Source: Ignavibacteria bacterium (lineage in GTDB: Bacteria; Bacteroidota; Ignavibacteria; Tepidaquicellales; OLB5). Taken from it: a stretch of DNA of 49,045 nt. The translations under genes and the position numbers were made by a program. Under the pieces are notes generated by a model that was not told the DNA's origin, did no database searches, and was given only the letters and a program-made list of their open reading frames with translations. The stretch spans positions 1 to 49,045 of the forward strand of contig JAIOIK010000187.1 in the NCBI GenBank assembly GCA_019912545.1. Direction: 5' to 3'. Numbering within the stretch: the stretch's first letter is position 1; each line of letters begins with the position of its first letter. This document shows positions 26,907 through 33,431 of the stretch, in pieces.

Positions 26907-29006
26907 ATGCCAAGAAAAGTATCATTAGAAAAGACAAGAAACATCGGCATCATGGCTCACATTGATGCCGGTAAGACGACAACGACAGAGCGAATTCTGT
27001 ATTACACCGGCCGTTTGCACAGGATGGGTGAAGTACATGAAGGCGCTGCTACTATGGACTGGATGGAACAGGAAAAAGAGCGCGGTATCACTATAACCAG
27101 CGCTGCTACAACATGTCAATGGAAAGATCACAGGATCAATATTATTGATACACCCGGCCACGTCGATTTTACTGCTGAAGTTGAGCGTTCTTTAAGAGTG
27201 CTTGATGGAGCAGTTGCGCTTTTCTGCGCAGTGGGCGGAGTTGAGCCGCAAAGCGAAACCGTTTGGAGACAGGCTGATAAATACGGCGTACCAAGGCTTG
27301 CTTTTGTGAACAAGATGGATAGAACAGGCGCTGATTTTTATCACGTGCTTGATATGATGAAAGACAGGCTAAAAGCAAATGTTGTACCGCTCCAGCTTCC
27401 TATCGGACAGGGAGAACTTTTCGTTGGCCAGATCGATTTGATCACTATGAGAGCTCTTATTTATAATGCGGATACTTTAGGGCAGACCTGGGAAGACCAG
27501 GAAATTCCTGCTTCACTATTAGAGAAGGCAAAAGAGTATCATTTAAAACTTCTTGAATCAGTTTCGGAAGTTGATGATACATTACTGAATAAATTTTTGA
27601 ATGGCCAGGAGATCTCCGAAGTTGAGATCAAAAAAGTGTTAAGGGAAGCAACCTTGAAAGTTAAGATCATTCCCGTGTTGTGCGGTTCTTCATTTAAGAA
27701 CAAAGGCGTACAGACACTTCTTGATTCTGTTATTGATTACCTCCCGTGTCCTAAGGATATCGGAGAAGTATGGGGACATCATATTCACACAGATGACCAT
27801 ATAACCAGGAATATTGATGATAGCGATAAGTTCTCATCACTGGCTTTTAAGATCATGACCGATCCGTTTGTTGGTAAACTTACATTTTTCAGAGTTTACT
27901 CCGGAACATTAAAGGCCGGTTCATATACTTTTAACCCGGTTTCGGGCAAGAAAGAAAGAGTTGGCAGGCTTCTGCAGATGCACGCTAATCACCGCGAAGA
28001 TCTTGACGAAGTTTTTGCAGGGGATATTGCTGCAGCTATTGGTTTGAAGCATACTAAAACAGGCGATACTTTGTGCGATGAAGGCGATCCGATTGTACTG
28101 GAAAGAATGACTTTCCCCGAGCCGGTTATTCATATTGCAATTGAGCCTAAAACTAAAGCTGATCAGGATAAACTATCTGAATCACTTGCAAAACTTGCAG
28201 ATGAAGATCCGACATTACGTATATCAACGAATGAAGAGACAGGACAGACAATTCTTGCCGGTATGGGTGAATTGCATCTTGAAATTATAGTTGACCGTTT
28301 AAAACGCGAATTTAAAGTCGAAGCTAATATCGGTAAACCACAGGTTGCTTACAAAGAAACAATTACTAAGAAAGTTGAGCAGGAAGGTAAGTTCATAAGG
28401 CAGTCCGGCGGTAAAGGACAGTTTGGTCATGTTTGGATCACGCTTGAGCCGAATGAAAAAGGCAAAGGTTTTGTATTTGAAAATAAGATCGTTGGCGGTT
28501 CTATTCCAAAGGAATATATTAAACCGGTGGAGCATGGAATTGAAGAAGCGATGAAAAATGGTGTTCTTGCAGGTTATCCTGTAGAGGATGTTAAAGCCGT
28601 TCTGATCGATGGTTCTTTCCATGATGTTGATTCCAGTGAAATGGCATTTAAGATAGCCGGCTCAATGGCATTTAAAGCAGGAGCTTTAAAAGCAGGTCCG
28701 ATAATTCTTGAGCCGATCATGAAAGTTGAAGTTACTACACCCGATGAATACATGGGTGATATAATGGGTGATTTAAGTTCAAGGCGCGGAAAGATAGAAG
28801 GAATGAATCAGCGCGGTGATGCACAGGTAATCAGGGCAATGGTGCCGCTTTCTGAAATGTTCGGTTATGCAACAGCAATGCGTTCTATGACACAGGGCAG
28901 AGCAATCTATAATATGGAATTCTCGCACTATGAAGAAGTTCCGAAATCTGTTTCTGAGCAGATAATTGAAAAGTTCAAAGGCAAAGAAACAGTAGGCGCA
29001 CATTAA
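26907..29006 (+). CDS. fusA: Elongation factor G
   Basis: This 699-aa translational GTPase drives ribosomal translocation. G1 is '[13 protein letters not shown]', G2 '[11 protein letters not shown]', G3 'DTPGHVDF' and G4 '[10 protein letters not shown]'. Domains II to V follow with the family blocks '[14 protein letters not shown]' and 'FSHYEEVP'. Length matches EF-G1. It sits in the canonical order after rpsG. Confidence 0.98.
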
Positions 29007-29021
29007 CATTTAAGATAAAAA

Positions 29022-29045
29022 TCGAAGAATCCAATGATTCTTCGA
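29022..29045 (+). terminator. 10-bp hairpin after fusA
   Basis: TCGAAGAATC (29022-29031) pairs perfectly with GATTCTTCGA (29036-29045) around CAAT, 16 nt past the fusA stop. No T-run follows, so it is more likely an RNA-stability or partial terminator element than a full terminator. Confidence 0.45.
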
Positions 29046-29096
29046 AGACATCAAAACAAAATAGTTTTTCGTTCTTTAAAATAAGTTTTTTGGGTT

Positions 29097-29115
29097 ATCC
29101 TGCTTTGGGCAGGAT
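29097..29115 (+). other. Short hairpin between fusA and the tRNA
   Basis: ATCCTGC (29097-29103) pairs with GCAGGAT (29109-29115). It may be a processing signal upstream of the tRNA. The stretch 29007-29200 contains no gene. Confidence 0.35.
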
Positions 29116-29200
29116 CCTCGTCAATTAGGTTAACGAATATGCTTTGTAAAATGATCTGTTTACTAAGAGTCTTATAAACAGATGATTCCAACTGAGTACT

Positions 29201-29274
29201 GGGCCAGTAGCTCAGTCGGTTAGAGCACGTGCCTTATAAGCACGGGGTGGGAGGTTCGATTCCTCCCTGGCCCA
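29201..29274 (+). tRNA. tRNA-Ile with UAU anticodon
   Basis: A full cloverleaf can be drawn. Acceptor stem GGGCCAG (29201-29207) pairs with CTGGCCC (29267-29273), and the discriminator base is A at 29274. The D stem is GCTC/GAGC and the anticodon stem is CGTGC (29228-29232) with GCACG (29240-29244). The loop CTTATAA gives anticodon TAT at 29235-29237. The T stem is GGAGG/CCTCC. CCA is not encoded. The body is that of ordinary tRNA-Ile(GAU), differing at position 34 (T for G). It is predicted to read AUA. It lies between fusA and tuf, where tRNA genes often occur. Confidence 0.9.
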
Positions 29275-29354
29275 CTATAAAAAGTTTTAGATTTTTTTCA
29301 CAATAAGTAAAAACCAAAAATAATATAAAATCATCTTAGGAGAACCAATTAAAA

Positions 29355-30590
29355 ATGGCTAAAGAAAAATTCGATAGAAGTAAACCCCACGTGAATATCG
29401 GAACGATCGGTCACGTTGATCATGGTAAGACAACTCTTACCGCTGCTATCACTATGGCACTTGCAAAAAAAGGTAAGTCAAAAGTAAGGGCATTCGATTC
29501 GATCGATAATGCTCCTGAAGAAAAAGCCAGAGGTATTACGATCGCGACTGCACACGTTGAGTATGAAACTGATAAAAGACATTACGCACACGTTGATTGT
29601 CCCGGTCATGCTGATTATGTTAAGAACATGATCACAGGTGCCGCACAGATGGACGGTGCGATTCTTGTTGTTGCTGCTAATGATGGTGCTATGCCTCAGA
29701 CAAAAGAGCATATTCTTTTGGCGCGGCAGGTTGGTGTTCCCAGGATAGTAGTATTCTTAAATAAAGTGGATATGATCTACGAGCAGGAAAAAACTGCTGA
29801 AGATGCTGAACTTCTTCTTGAAGTTGTTGAATCTGAGTTAAGGGATATACTTAACAGTTATGAATTCCCCGGAGATGAAATTCCAATTATCAGAGGCAGC
29901 GCTTTAAAAGCGATGGAAGCCGGTCTAAAAGAAGGCTCTACCCCTGATGAACCTGCTTTGAAATGCATTTATGACCTCATGGATTCAGTTGATAGCTATG
30001 TTCTTGAGCCGACAAGAGAAATTGATAAACCATACCTAATGTCAGTTGAAGATGTATTCTCTATAACAGGCCGCGGAACAGTTGCTACCGGAAGAGTTGA
30101 AAGAGGTAAAGTTAAGATGGGTGAGGAAGTTGAGCTTATCGGACTTGGTCAGCACAAAAAGACCGTTGTTACAGGTATTGAAATGTTCCAGAAGGAACTT
30201 GATGAAGGTCTTGCAGGCGATAATCTTGGTATGCTTTTAAGAGGTGTCGAAAAGAAAGATATCGAAAGAGGCATGGTTATAGCTAAGCCGGGTTCTATTA
30301 CCCCTCATAAAGTATTTAACTGCCAGGTATACGTTCTTTCAAAAGAAGAAGGCGGACGTCACACTCCGTTCTTCGGTAATTACAGGCCGCAGTTCTATTT
30401 CAGAACTACTGACGTAACAGGTGTTGTTTATTTACCCGAAGGCGTACAAATGGTTATGCCTGGTGATAATGTAGATAACCTTAAAGTAGAGCTGATCACT
30501 CCTATCGCGATGGAAGAAGGTTTAAGGTTCGCTATTCGTGAAGGCGGAAGAACAGTTGGCGCTGGTGTTGTAACTAAAATTATTGAATAA
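29355..30590 (+). CDS. tuf: Elongation factor Tu
   Basis: The 411-aa GTPase delivers aminoacyl-tRNA to the ribosome. Motifs include 'GHVDHGKTT', 'DCPGHADY', 'NKVDM' and the C-terminal '[13 protein letters not shown]'. The usual length is 393-397; two insertions account for the difference, one after 'NKVDM' (including 'EQEKTAEDA') and one after '[10 protein letters not shown]' ('[10 protein letters not shown]'). Both are in the G domain, after G4, and are likely surface loops. AGGAG lies upstream of the ATG. The tRNA-Ile gene ends 80 nt before the start. Confidence 0.98.
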
Positions 30591-30613: not shown

Positions 30614-30922
30614 TTGGCACCGCAGAAAATCAGGATTAAATTAAAATCTTATGACCACAGGCTTATTGATAAGTGGACAGACAGGATCATTAAAACTATA
30701 AAATCCACCGGTGGAGTGGTATCGGGTCCGATACCGCTTCCTACACGGAAGGCAGTTTATACTGTTTTAAGATCACCGCATGTAGATAAGAAGTCAAGGG
30801 AGCAGTTCGAAATAAGATCGCATAAGAGAGTGATCGATATTCTGAACTCAAACAAAAAGACAGTTGATGCGCTTACTAAGCTGGATCCTCCCGGTGGCGT
30901 ATATATTGAAATCAAAACATAA
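30614..30922 (+). CDS. rpsJ: Small ribosomal subunit protein uS10
   Basis: uS10 is part of the 30S head and also the NusE antitermination factor. The 102 aa match the family ('[15 protein letters not shown]', 'GPIPLPTRK', 'HKRVIDI'). The start is TTG at 30614, set by the conserved N-terminus; AAGGA lies upstream. It begins the S10 portion of the operon, 23 nt after tuf. Confidence 0.98.
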
Positions 30923-30931
30923 GGAAAAGTA

Positions 30932-31558
30932 ATGAAAGGTTTAATAGGAAGAAAACTCGGAATGACTTCGGTCTTTACCGATGATGGTTCCAGTGTACCA
31001 TGCACTCTGATAGAAGCGGGTCCGTGTTATATTACCGCTGTAAAAACTATAGAAGATGACGGCTATTCGGCAGTACAGCTCGGTTTTGAAGAAAGAAAAG
31101 AAAAAAGACTCGCAAAACCTCAGCTAAAAAACTTTAAAAAAAAGAATCTTCCCATCCTCAGGTTCTTAAAAGAAATCAGGGACTTTGAAAATATTGCCGA
31201 AATGAAAGTTGGCGATGTGATTAAAGCTGATCTTTTTAAACAGGGGGAAACGGTTAAAGTTACCGCTAAGAGCAAAGGAAAAGGATTCCAGGGTGTTGTT
31301 AAAAGACATGGATTCGGCGGCGGTTCTGTTACTCACGGTCAAAGCGATAGGTTAAGGGCGCCCGGCTCGATCGGCGCAAGTTCTTATCCCTCAAGGGTTT
31401 TTAAAGGACAGAGAATGGCCGGAAGAACAGGCGGCGACCAAATAAGTGTTCGTAATCTAAAAATTATTAAAGTTATTCCTGAATCAAATCTTTTGCTGGT
31501 CAAGGGAGCTGTTCCCGGAGCAATTTCAGGTTTAGTTGAAATTTATAAGGTGAAATAA
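30932..31558 (+). CDS. rplC: Large ribosomal subunit protein uL3
   Basis: uL3 organises the 3' domain of 23S rRNA near the peptidyl-transferase centre. The 208 aa carry 'GLIGRKLGMT' at the N-terminus, the loop 'HGFGGGSVTHGQSDRLRAPGS' region and 'GRTGGDQISVRNL'. Length is normal. It is spaced 9 nt from rpsJ with an AAGGA site. Confidence 0.98.
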   Translation: MKGLIGRKLGMTSVFTDDGSSVPCTLIEAGPCYITAVKTIEDDGYSAVQLGFEERKEKRLAKPQLKNFKKKNLPILRFLKEIRDFENIAEMKVGDVIKADLFKQGETVKVTAKSKGKGFQGVVKRHGFGGGSVTHGQSDRLRAPGSIGASSYPSRVFKGQRMAGRTGGDQISVRNLKIIKVIPESNLLLVKGAVPGAISGLVEIYKVK

Positions 31559-31559
31559 G

Positions 31560-32189
31560 ATGCAATTAAATGTATATAAAATTGACGGGTCTGAATCAAA
31601 AGAAAAAATAGAACTTCCGTCCAGTATTTTTGAAGTTGAGCCAAATCATCACTTGATTTACCAGGCTGTAAGGACCTACCTTTCTAACCAAAGGCAGGGT
31701 ACACACAAAGCCAAGGAAAGAAGTGAAGTGAGAGGCGGCGGCAGAAAACCATGGAAGCAAAAAGGCAGAGGAACAGCCAGAAGCGGAACTATCCGCTCCC
31801 CGGTTTGGGTCGGAGGCGGTACAATTCACGGACCGAGGCCGCATCTCTATAAGCTTGGTATGACTAAAAAATCAGCTCAGCTTGCCAGAAAGAGCGCATT
31901 AAGTCTTAAAGCTAAAAATGGCGAGATCATGGTTGTTGAAGATATCAATTTCGAGAAACCTAGGACGAAAGATTTTAGTTCTATACTAAAGAGCCTGAAC
32001 CTGGATGGCAAGAAAGTATTGATGCTGACGGTTAAAGATAACGATAATGTTTACAAATCAGGCAGGAATATAAACAAAGTCAATGTTTTGAATGCATCAA
32101 ATGCAGCTACATACGACCTTGTTAATAACCAGCTCATACTTATTCAAAAAAGTGCGCTTGATGAACTATGCAAGCCTTTAATTAAATAA
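31560..32189 (+). CDS. rplD: Large ribosomal subunit protein uL4
   Basis: uL4 lines the exit tunnel of the 50S subunit. In 209 aa the tunnel-loop signature 'RSEVRGGGRKPWKQKGRGTAR' region and 'SPVWVGGGTIHGP' are intact. It starts one base after the rplC stop, so translation is probably coupled. In Enterobacteria L4 autoregulates the S10 operon; no equivalent leader is recognised here. Confidence 0.98.
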   Translation: MQLNVYKIDGSESKEKIELPSSIFEVEPNHHLIYQAVRTYLSNQRQGTHKAKERSEVRGGGRKPWKQKGRGTARSGTIRSPVWVGGGTIHGPRPHLYKLGMTKKSAQLARKSALSLKAKNGEIMVVEDINFEKPRTKDFSSILKSLNLDGKKVLMLTVKDNDNVYKSGRNINKVNVLNASNAATYDLVNNQLILIQKSALDELCKPLIK

Positions 32190-32211
32190 ATTTAGCCACA
32201 ATTATAAGATC

Positions 32212-32511
32212 ATGATAAGAAGTATTTTAGTAAAACCGGTAATAACGGAAAAAATGACCTTGCTTCAGGAGCAAAAGAATCAGTATGCTTTTGAAGTTGA
32301 TATAAATGCGTCTAAAGTTGCCATTAAGAATGCAATACAGGGCAAGTTTAATGTAAAGGTAGATAGCATCAGAACCGTAACATCAAAAGGAAAGCGGAAA
32401 TCCCAATTCACCAAAAAAGGCAGATACGAGGGATTCAGGCCGACACGCAAAAGAGCGATAGTTACTTTAGCAAAAGATAACAAGATCGATCTTTTTGAAA
32501 CCTCGGCTTAA
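32212..32511 (+). CDS. rplW: Large ribosomal subunit protein uL23
   Basis: uL23 sits at the tunnel exit and docks SRP and trigger factor. The 99 aa contain 'ILVKPVITEKMT', 'FEVDINASKVAIKNAIQ' and 'VDSIRTV', then a basic extension. In nearly all bacteria rplB (uL2) follows directly. Here the next gene on this strand is the sigma factor after 53 nt, so the S10 cluster is interrupted at this point. Confidence 0.97.
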   Translation: MIRSILVKPVITEKMTLLQEQKNQYAFEVDINASKVAIKNAIQGKFNVKVDSIRTVTSKGKRKSQFTKKGRYEGFRPTRKRAIVTLAKDNKIDLFETSA

Positions 32512-32564
32512 TTTTTACGAATCTCTGAATATTTTTAATAATTTAACCTATGTAATCACCGCCT

Positions 32565-33431
32565 ATGAAAATTGGTAAACAATTTACAAATAGGGAATCC
32601 CAATCAATTGATAAGTATCTGCAGGAGATCGGGAAAGTAGAACTTCTTGATGTAGAAGAAGAGATTGACCTTGCAAAGAAAATAAAGTACGGCGACGAAA
32701 AAGAAAAGCAGAAGGCACTTGAAAAATTGACCAAGGCTAATCTTCGTTTTGTTGTAAGTGTCGCCAAGCAATATCAGAACCAGGGACTTTCTCTAGGCGA
32801 TCTTATTAATGAAGGAAATCTTGGACTGATCAAAGCTGCAAAAAGATTTGATGAGACCAGGGGATTCAAATTTATTTCATATGCTGTTTGGTGGATAAGA
32901 CAATCTATATTACAGGCTTTGGCGGAACAGTCACGTATTGTAAGGCTTCCACTTAACAGGGTAGGAGCGCTTAACAAAATTGGTAAAGCCTACAGCACGC
33001 TTGAGCAGGAATTTGAAAGAGAGCCAAGCGCAGATGAACTTGCTGAACAGCTTGATATGTCTTTATATGAAGTATCCGATACACTAAAAATTTCAGGAAG
33101 GCATTTATCTATTGATGCTCCGTTTGTTCATGGAGAAGATAGCAGGCTTGTTGATATTATGCCCAATCAGAACCAGCCCTTGCCGGATCATACACTTATC
33201 AATGAATCGCTTAAGATTGAAATTCAAAGGGCCTTAAATACTTTGAGCCCTAGAGAGCGTGATGTATTAAAATTATATTACGGCTTAGATCAGGAAAATC
33301 CATTAACTCTCGAAGAAATAGGCGAGAAATTCAAGCTGACAAGAGAAAGAGTAAGACAGATCAAAGAAAAAGCGATCAGAAGATTAAAGCACGCTTCAAA
33401 AAGCAAGCAATTGAAGACATATCTTGGCTAA
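32565..33431 (+). CDS. rpoD: Primary sigma factor, Bacteroidota-type RpoD
   Basis: The 288-aa sigma-70 factor lacks region 1.1, as is usual for the primary sigma of Bacteroidota. Region 1.2 starts at '[11 protein letters not shown]'. Regions 2.1-2.4 include '[18 protein letters not shown]' and '[13 protein letters not shown]'. Region 3 follows, and region 4.2 has '[23 protein letters not shown]'. It would direct RNA polymerase to TTTG/TAnnTTTG promoters such as those seen here. Its place immediately after rplW is unusual and may link its expression to the ribosomal operon; a terminator follows at 33464-33497. Confidence 0.96.

Follow-up and report, generated by a model that had tools for sequence, protein, structure and literature searches.

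Bacteria canonically read AUA as isoleucine with tRNA-Ile2(CAU), which works beside tRNA-Ile(GAU) and needs its C34 converted to lysidine by lysidine synthetase (TilS). A passage of PMC4810244 calls TilS essential but for a few exceptions, and the losses named in the literature excerpts cited here concern Mycoplasma relatives, Neorickettsia, and Bifidobacterium. According to passages of PMC8450103 and PMC4014445, a tRNA-Ile with the anticodon UAU takes the place of tRNA-Ile2(CAU) in Bifidobacterium, Neorickettsia, and hemoplasmas; for the hemoplasmas the loss of TilS is stated as well (PMC4014445). One excerpt counts 19 species with TAT tRNAs (PMC4013482), another 17 bacterial genomes with UAU in place of CAU, Bifidobacterium, Mycoplasma, and Neorickettsia among them (PMC8450103). 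In Mycoplasma mobile, by the account in passages of PMC4013482 and PMC4014445, U34 is unmodified, the isoleucyl-tRNA synthetase (IleRS) is altered, and the organism's own ribosome favours AUA. Other works to which such passages refer are Silva 2006, Fabret 2011, Taniguchi 2013, Tomikawa 2018, and Uesugi 2022.

The locus described here, from the order Tepidaquicellales of the class Ignavibacteria, resembles the system of M. mobile (Taniguchi et al. 2013, as described or cited in passages of other papers), in that tilS is not found and a tRNA-Ile with U34 replaces the CAU tRNA. However, the M. mobile case is confined to a single species, and its genome is reduced; here we are dealing with an order whose genomes measure 2–4.6 Mb. 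Since an order of 44 species with genomes of that size has fixed the alternative, extreme genome shrinkage would not be required for it. The order shares the replacement of tRNA-Ile2(CAU) with Bifidobacterium, Neorickettsia, and hemoplasmas (Bifidobacterium aesculapii, G443, is likewise a UAU carrier with no TilS match), and the loss of TilS with the hemoplasmas, but these belong to other phyla, and the passages cited neither give a basis in IleRS nor name this order. The eukaryotic cytosol offers another likeness, with a genome-encoded UAU anticodon and a type-2 IleRS, but there, by passages of PMC8007984 and PMC8879553, the anticodon is modified with pseudouridine and the major tRNA is AAU/IAU. 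The likeness to the canonical bacterial system is that AUA is read as isoleucine beside tRNA-Ile(GAU); neither the enzyme nor the tRNA peculiar to that system was found in the order.

We propose, with a probability of roughly 0.86, that tRNA-Ile(UAU) is the cell's reader of AUA and that it replaced tRNA-Ile2(CAU) and TilS in the ancestor of the order, together with a change in IleRS. The swap itself is already known. What appears to be new, judging from the sequences compared, is its extent over a whole order of full-sized genomes, its pairing with an IleRS of type 2, and a distinct residue as the candidate switch. A literature search over titles and abstract openings, with most subscription papers outside its reach, returned nothing that we recognised as concerning this clade or that residue of type-2 IleRS.

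A tRNA-Ile(UAU) gene between fusA and tuf

The window, i.e., the whole stretch of 49,045 nucleotides that was analysed, is one entire contig of genome G000 (206 contigs totalling 3,660,562 bases; completeness 99.68%). Three of its features concern us first:

26907 to 29006, plus strand: fusA (EF-G), upstream neighbour of the tRNA gene, from Pfam EF-G domains and conserved position
29201 to 29274, plus strand: tRNA-Ile(UAU) gene, from ARAGORN, Rfam RF00005 (72.8 bits), and stem pairing
29355 to 30590, plus strand: tuf (EF-Tu), downstream neighbour of the tRNA gene, from the Pfam domains GTP_EFTU, D2, and D3 and conserved position

A preliminary description, made from the letters of the window, had called the middle feature a tRNA-Ile with a UAU anticodon and perfectly paired stems, and both claims are confirmed. 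ARAGORN (which reports the gene as 29201–29275) places the anticodon TAT at 29235–29237, with the T at 29235 as nucleotide 35; the RF00005 score compares with a gathering score of 29; and pairing is complete in the acceptor (7/7), D (4/4), anticodon (5/5), and T (5/5) stems. The fold of the RNA has a z-score of -2.59, and the CCA end is absent from the gene sequence. The element is thus a canonical tRNA-Ile with a sound cloverleaf and the anticodon UAU.

A G at 29235 in place of T would make this an ordinary tRNA-Ile(GAU), misread through an error of sequencing or assembly. The chance of that is negligible. The anticodon loop TTATAA was found by pattern scan and hand count in 40 of the 44 genomes of the order, with both families represented, and conservation on this scale excludes chance and sequencing error. 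Moreover, G007, a genome of the same genus, encodes its GAU and UAU tRNAs in two genes that lie apart from each other. The four genomes with no match to the UAU pattern, G002, G006, G009, and G316, are 87, 94, 64, and 93% complete, respectively.

The position of the gene is conserved as well. In all 13 of the order's loci examined (of 40 carriers), it is flanked by fusA and tuf, and the same arrangement recurs in five named Ignavibacteria/Bacteroidetes loci (L077, L095, L108, L117, and L123), at least four of them from this order. Among 22 tuf loci from outgroups within the class, none has a tRNA within about 1.5 kb of tuf, and 21 have directly upstream of tuf a homologue of fusA, 50–74% identical to the window's (L437 is the one where fusA was not seen there). 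In the simplest history, the UAU gene would have been gained once, in the str operon, and tRNA-Ile2(CAU) and tilS lost once, both before the two families of the order split.

Transcription of the tRNA would proceed from the str operon region. In a scan of 28950–29420, consensus matching gave promoter-like sites on the plus strand at 29003–29030 and 29295–29326 and no terminator-like site on that strand; the sole terminator-like match is on the minus strand, at 29045–29022. This spot between fusA and the tRNA gene (29022–29045) is a 10-pair inverted repeat with a run of T on the minus strand, and the plus strand of the region, as RNA, likewise forms a hairpin (z -4.5).

Further downstream, at 30614–33431, the S10 ribosomal operon looks truncated: rpsJ and rplC (both named by eye) and rplD (L4, by Pfam) are followed by a gene for a sigma-70 factor in place of the usual L23 and L2 genes.

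The body of the tRNA had been likened to tRNA-Ile(GAU). The likeness exists (54/73 to the order's GAU consensus), but it is not specific, as identity to the class's CAU-Ile2 consensus is 56/73. The order's UAU consensus gives the reverse, 56/73 to GAU and 54/73 to CAU-Ile2, so that these figures do not discriminate between an origin by single change from the one or from the other. In a midpoint-rooted tree of 110 tRNAs, the order's eight distinct UAU tRNAs fall together (support 0.0), within a group of 12 that holds other UAU tRNAs (0.83) and is enclosed by a group of 26 that includes GAU tRNAs (0.80); they do not group with CAU-Ile2.

The accompanying isoleucine and methionine tRNAs

Among the 38 tRNA matches of G000, read with ARAGORN, are one tRNA-Ile (UAU) and two CAU tRNAs. 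By eye, one of the latter (L021) is elongator-like, with the loop ATCATAA, and the other (L022) has a C1/U72 mismatch as its first acceptor pair, as expected for an initiator. Neither Ile(GAU) nor Ala(TGC) was found among the 38, and because of the missing Ile(GAU), the full isoleucine and methionine set was taken from G007, which is assembled in two contigs and 100% complete. Its 43 tRNAs cover every amino acid and look like a complete set. They include one Ile(GAU), adjoining Ala(TGC), one Ile(UAU), and two CAU tRNAs, both Met-like, one identical to L021 and the other nearly identical to L022. With no third CAU tRNA in that set, no tRNA-Ile2 is found, and an Ile-type CAU tRNA was found neither there nor among the 38 matches of G000. 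A poorly matching tRNA could have been missed, since the searches scored 150 of 201 first-look candidates in G000 and 150 of 228 in G007.

Across 119 genomes of the class, a hand count found a tRNA with the Ile2-type loop CTCATAA in none of the 15 from the order and in 71 of the 104 from outside it, the latter figure being a lower bound because not every form fits the pattern. The UAU tRNA had been proposed to stand instead of the usual GAU or CAU tRNAs; that holds for CAU, of which no Ile-type form was found, but not for GAU, which coexists with UAU in relatives.

Lysidine synthetase

Two profiles were used to look for TilS: PF01171, the family of its ATP-binding domain, and TIGR02432, with a cut-off of 93.6 bits. 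By PF01171, all 14 named control genomes exceed the cut-off and G000 does not, nor does any of the 15 genomes of its family, where two weak matches of 21.6 bits are seen. TIGR02432 (over cut-off in 10 of the 14 controls) exceeds its cut-off in none of the order's 44 genomes, the best score being 27.8 bits, but does so in 292 of 296 genomes sampled from the phylum. The four exceptions are G000, G007, G194, and G133, and the first three are the only UAU carriers in the sample. The fourth, G133, is 99% complete and has neither TilS over cut-off nor a UAU match, which may reflect an assembly gap or another solution. Weak TIGR02432 matches (E of 0.01 or better) occur in 41 of the order's 44 genomes. 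Three such sub-threshold matches were examined; a pair of them proved to be GMP synthase (758 and 766 bits) and the third an N-acetyl sugar amidotransferase.

Neither of the features that define the canonical system, tilS and a CAU tRNA-Ile2, was thus found in the order, and the suggestion that the UAU tRNA serves as an alternative to that route is borne out by the TilS count and by the tRNA sets of G000 and G007. One might still suppose that the UAU tRNA is a redundant extra isoacceptor beside a normal CAU/TilS system, as is reported for lactic acid bacteria; the title of one cited work names redundant tRNAs of the CAU and UAU kind in Lactobacillus plantarum, and 7 of 50 UAU-bearing genomes in the wider survey described below also have TilS over cut-off. 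In the order, however, the count is 0 of 44, and no Ile-type CAU tRNA was found among the 43 or the 38 tRNAs, so redundancy is a very improbable explanation here.

A fixed change in the anticodon-binding domain of IleRS

If a UAU tRNA has replaced the lysidine route, its charging would fall to IleRS. The enzyme of G000 was translated from the stretch L373:

IleRS of G000 (L373), 1,049 amino acids from the start MFKELPD: Pfam domains tRNA-synt_1, Anticodon_1, and DUF5915

The DUF5915 match (PF19302, E 1.1e-47) lies at the C-terminus, where, reading by eye, there is no cluster of Cys. The nearest solved chains are 8c8w, which we take to be the type-2 enzyme IleRS2 of Priestia megaterium, and its near-identical relatives (E 5.6e-286), while 1ffy, presumably the type-1 IleRS of Staphylococcus aureus, gives 3.6e-106. 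Because the nearest chain is 8c8w rather than 1ffy, we class the clade's IleRS, by sequence, as type 2 (eukaryote-like). Type-1 enzymes carry a C-terminal zinc cluster of four Cys, which type 2 does without (passages of PMC4861432).

Seven IleRS sequences from the order were aligned with 20 from outgroups (16 from the class and 4 from elsewhere in the phylum), all 20 from genomes with TilS over cut-off. Of 186 columns invariant within each group, exactly one differs between the groups: residue 744, Trp in 20/20 outgroups and Arg in 7/7 members of the order. It lies in the Anticodon_1 (anticodon-binding) domain and ends the motif SNWYVRRNRRRF. Arg is found also in the partial IleRS of G328 and in G004, G006, G009, and G012, which makes 12 of 12 for the genomes of the order that yielded the region; of seven further stretches fetched for the enzyme, the three from G002, G008, and G013 had no match to IleRS. 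Outside the phylum, Trp occupies the column in 8c8w and 1ile (the latter, we assume, the Thermus enzyme), and 9w01, a cytoplasmic IleRS from a eukaryote, presumably human, has Lys there. In this basic residue, too, the eukaryotic enzyme resembles that of the order.

A second column, T to N at residue 988, was considered and dropped, because the 8c8w-type IleRS has Trp at the first column yet N at the second. MetRS-like proteins (named by eye) carry a similar motif, NKYFNDxEPW; we claim no parallel, since the two Trp were not brought into register by a profile alignment.

The adapted IleRS foreseen in the preliminary description is therefore present in the sense of a changed residue, fixed in the domain that binds the anticodon; that the change lets the enzyme accept U34 and charge the tRNA is a plausible reading of the alignment. 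Perhaps, however, a type-2 IleRS accepts U34 unchanged and the replacement of Trp by Arg is unrelated drift. Eukaryotic cytosolic IleRS, of type 2, charges a UAU-type tRNA-Ile, and this counts for drift. The case concerns, besides, a single fixed column, and Anticodon_1 holds 24 of the 186 constant columns, so that a lone fixed change would land in it by chance about 1 time in 8. That type 2 includes the eukaryotic cytosolic enzymes is stated in a passage of PMC4861432. Against drift, the Trp is kept in all the TilS-bearing outgroups as well as in 8c8w and 1ile, while the eukaryotic 9w01 has a basic residue. In two control clades with good support, of 5 and 7 sequences, there is no fixed difference to set them apart (a grouping of 11 without a support value has one, Leu/Val). 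Finally, the residue is missing from an independent UAU lineage, a member of the Woesebacteria (L097/G417) with a complete genome, a UAU tRNA, and no TilS match, whose IleRS, found in the stretches retrieved, is related (41% across 894 positions) and has no residues at the Trp column, hence no Arg; this is the one independent bacterial UAU lineage compared. Together these points make drift somewhat unlikely.

A broader proposal is more tentative, and we would hold it at rather less than even odds. The Trp that ends the motif NWYVRRNRRRF-W would be a candidate gate for the wobble base in type-2 IleRS: bacteria that keep TilS keep the Trp, and UAU lineages replace it with a basic residue or lose it. 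Opening the gate would be the key step that frees a cell from TilS; this order, candidate-phyla bacteria, and eukaryotes would each have taken it independently, in parallel with the switch reported for the type-1 enzyme of M. mobile. If so, one change in one enzyme would do away with the need for an otherwise essential TilS. The single fixed change in IleRS would explain directly, and in a form open to testing, how such a swap can arise. The natural pair of enzyme and tRNA could serve genetic-code engineering at AUA.

The parallel with M. mobile is not one of position. There, IleRS is of type 1 with an Arg in the C-terminal zinc region (the switch is reportedly an Arg in place of the Trp of E. 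coli, W905), whereas the order's enzyme is of type 2 with its Trp-to-Arg change in Anticodon_1. The altered enzyme of M. mobile charges its U34 tRNA, by the account in the passages cited above; the order's enzyme, with its fixed change, may do the same.

In the Woesebacteria Ch104b (L472:5631–8450), the IleRS frame runs to 939 codons, and an 851-aa piece of it matches Anticodon_1 with no match to DUF5915. IleRS candidates near other UAU tRNAs were class-I synthetases only 21–24% similar and were dropped.

How AUA may be read

The sequence comparisons support a scheme in which a native UAU tRNA-Ile replaces the CAU/TilS route with the help of a changed IleRS. The altered type-2 IleRS would charge tRNA-Ile(UAU) with isoleucine, and a plain U34 would pair directly with the A of AUA; therefore no conversion of C34 to lysidine would be needed. 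The GAU tRNA would read AUC and AUU, and the CAU tRNAs, elongator and initiator, would serve methionine at AUG. By analogy with M. mobile, AUG may be kept for methionine by the unmodified U34, by the ribosome, or by both.

It could instead be that U34 is modified, for example to a cm5U-type base or to pseudouridine, and that the modification rather than the bare anticodon sets the choice between AUA and AUG. U34 is often modified in the split codon boxes of bacteria, which counts for this possibility. So does the pseudouridine form that eukaryotes use (passages of PMC8879553). The precedent of M. mobile, however, is a tRNA with unmodified U34 (passages of PMC4013482 and PMC4014445), and a base of the cnm5U/cm5U type would, by a passage of PMC8879553, read AUG as well. 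We regard a modified U34 as fairly unlikely and prefer the plain one.

AUA is an everyday codon here, and base composition explains most of its frequency. By counts from mechanical ORFs in 20–60 kb per genome, it amounts in the window to 27.5 per 1000 codons, or 34% of isoleucine codons, in line with the earlier remark that AUA is common there, and to 25.6–40.6 per 1000 in five other genomes of the order. Of the 134 isoleucine codons in seven genes from the window's str and early S10 region, 30 are AUA. Enrichment of AUA as a consequence of the UAU tRNA was considered and set aside, as three AT-rich outgroups that bear TilS come close (22.3–30.1), while three GC-rich outgroups lie at 3.8–11.4.

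Distribution of tRNA-Ile(UAU) beyond the order

A native UAU tRNA had been called rare. It is less rare than thought: a search with the tRNA-Ile(UAU) pattern returned at least 115 stretches from a collection with one genome per species. Among the matches listed, all 80 are called Ile(TAT) by ARAGORN, and by their titles they come from many Patescibacteria lineages, Planctomycetota, a Bifidobacterium, Lachnospiraceae, Similichlamydia, and two Micrarchaeota. This suggests that the UAU tRNA-Ile is far more widespread in uncultured bacteria than the published 17 to 19 genomes or species, and Patescibacteria look like a large, little-described second home of UAU decoding.

Fifty of the 80 were examined by genome, irrespective of completeness. 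TilS is not over cut-off in 43, and is in seven (L078, L080, L090, L091, L094, L113, and L121); two further genomes of the 50 have TilS scores below the cut-off, 84 and 54 bits. Because seven genomes combine UAU with TilS, redundant or transitional states exist outside the lactic acid bacteria. Among viral contigs, at least 120 stretches match the tRNA-Ile(UAU) pattern (a match to the pattern only), and phages may thus bring with them a reading of AUA independent of the TilS of their hosts.
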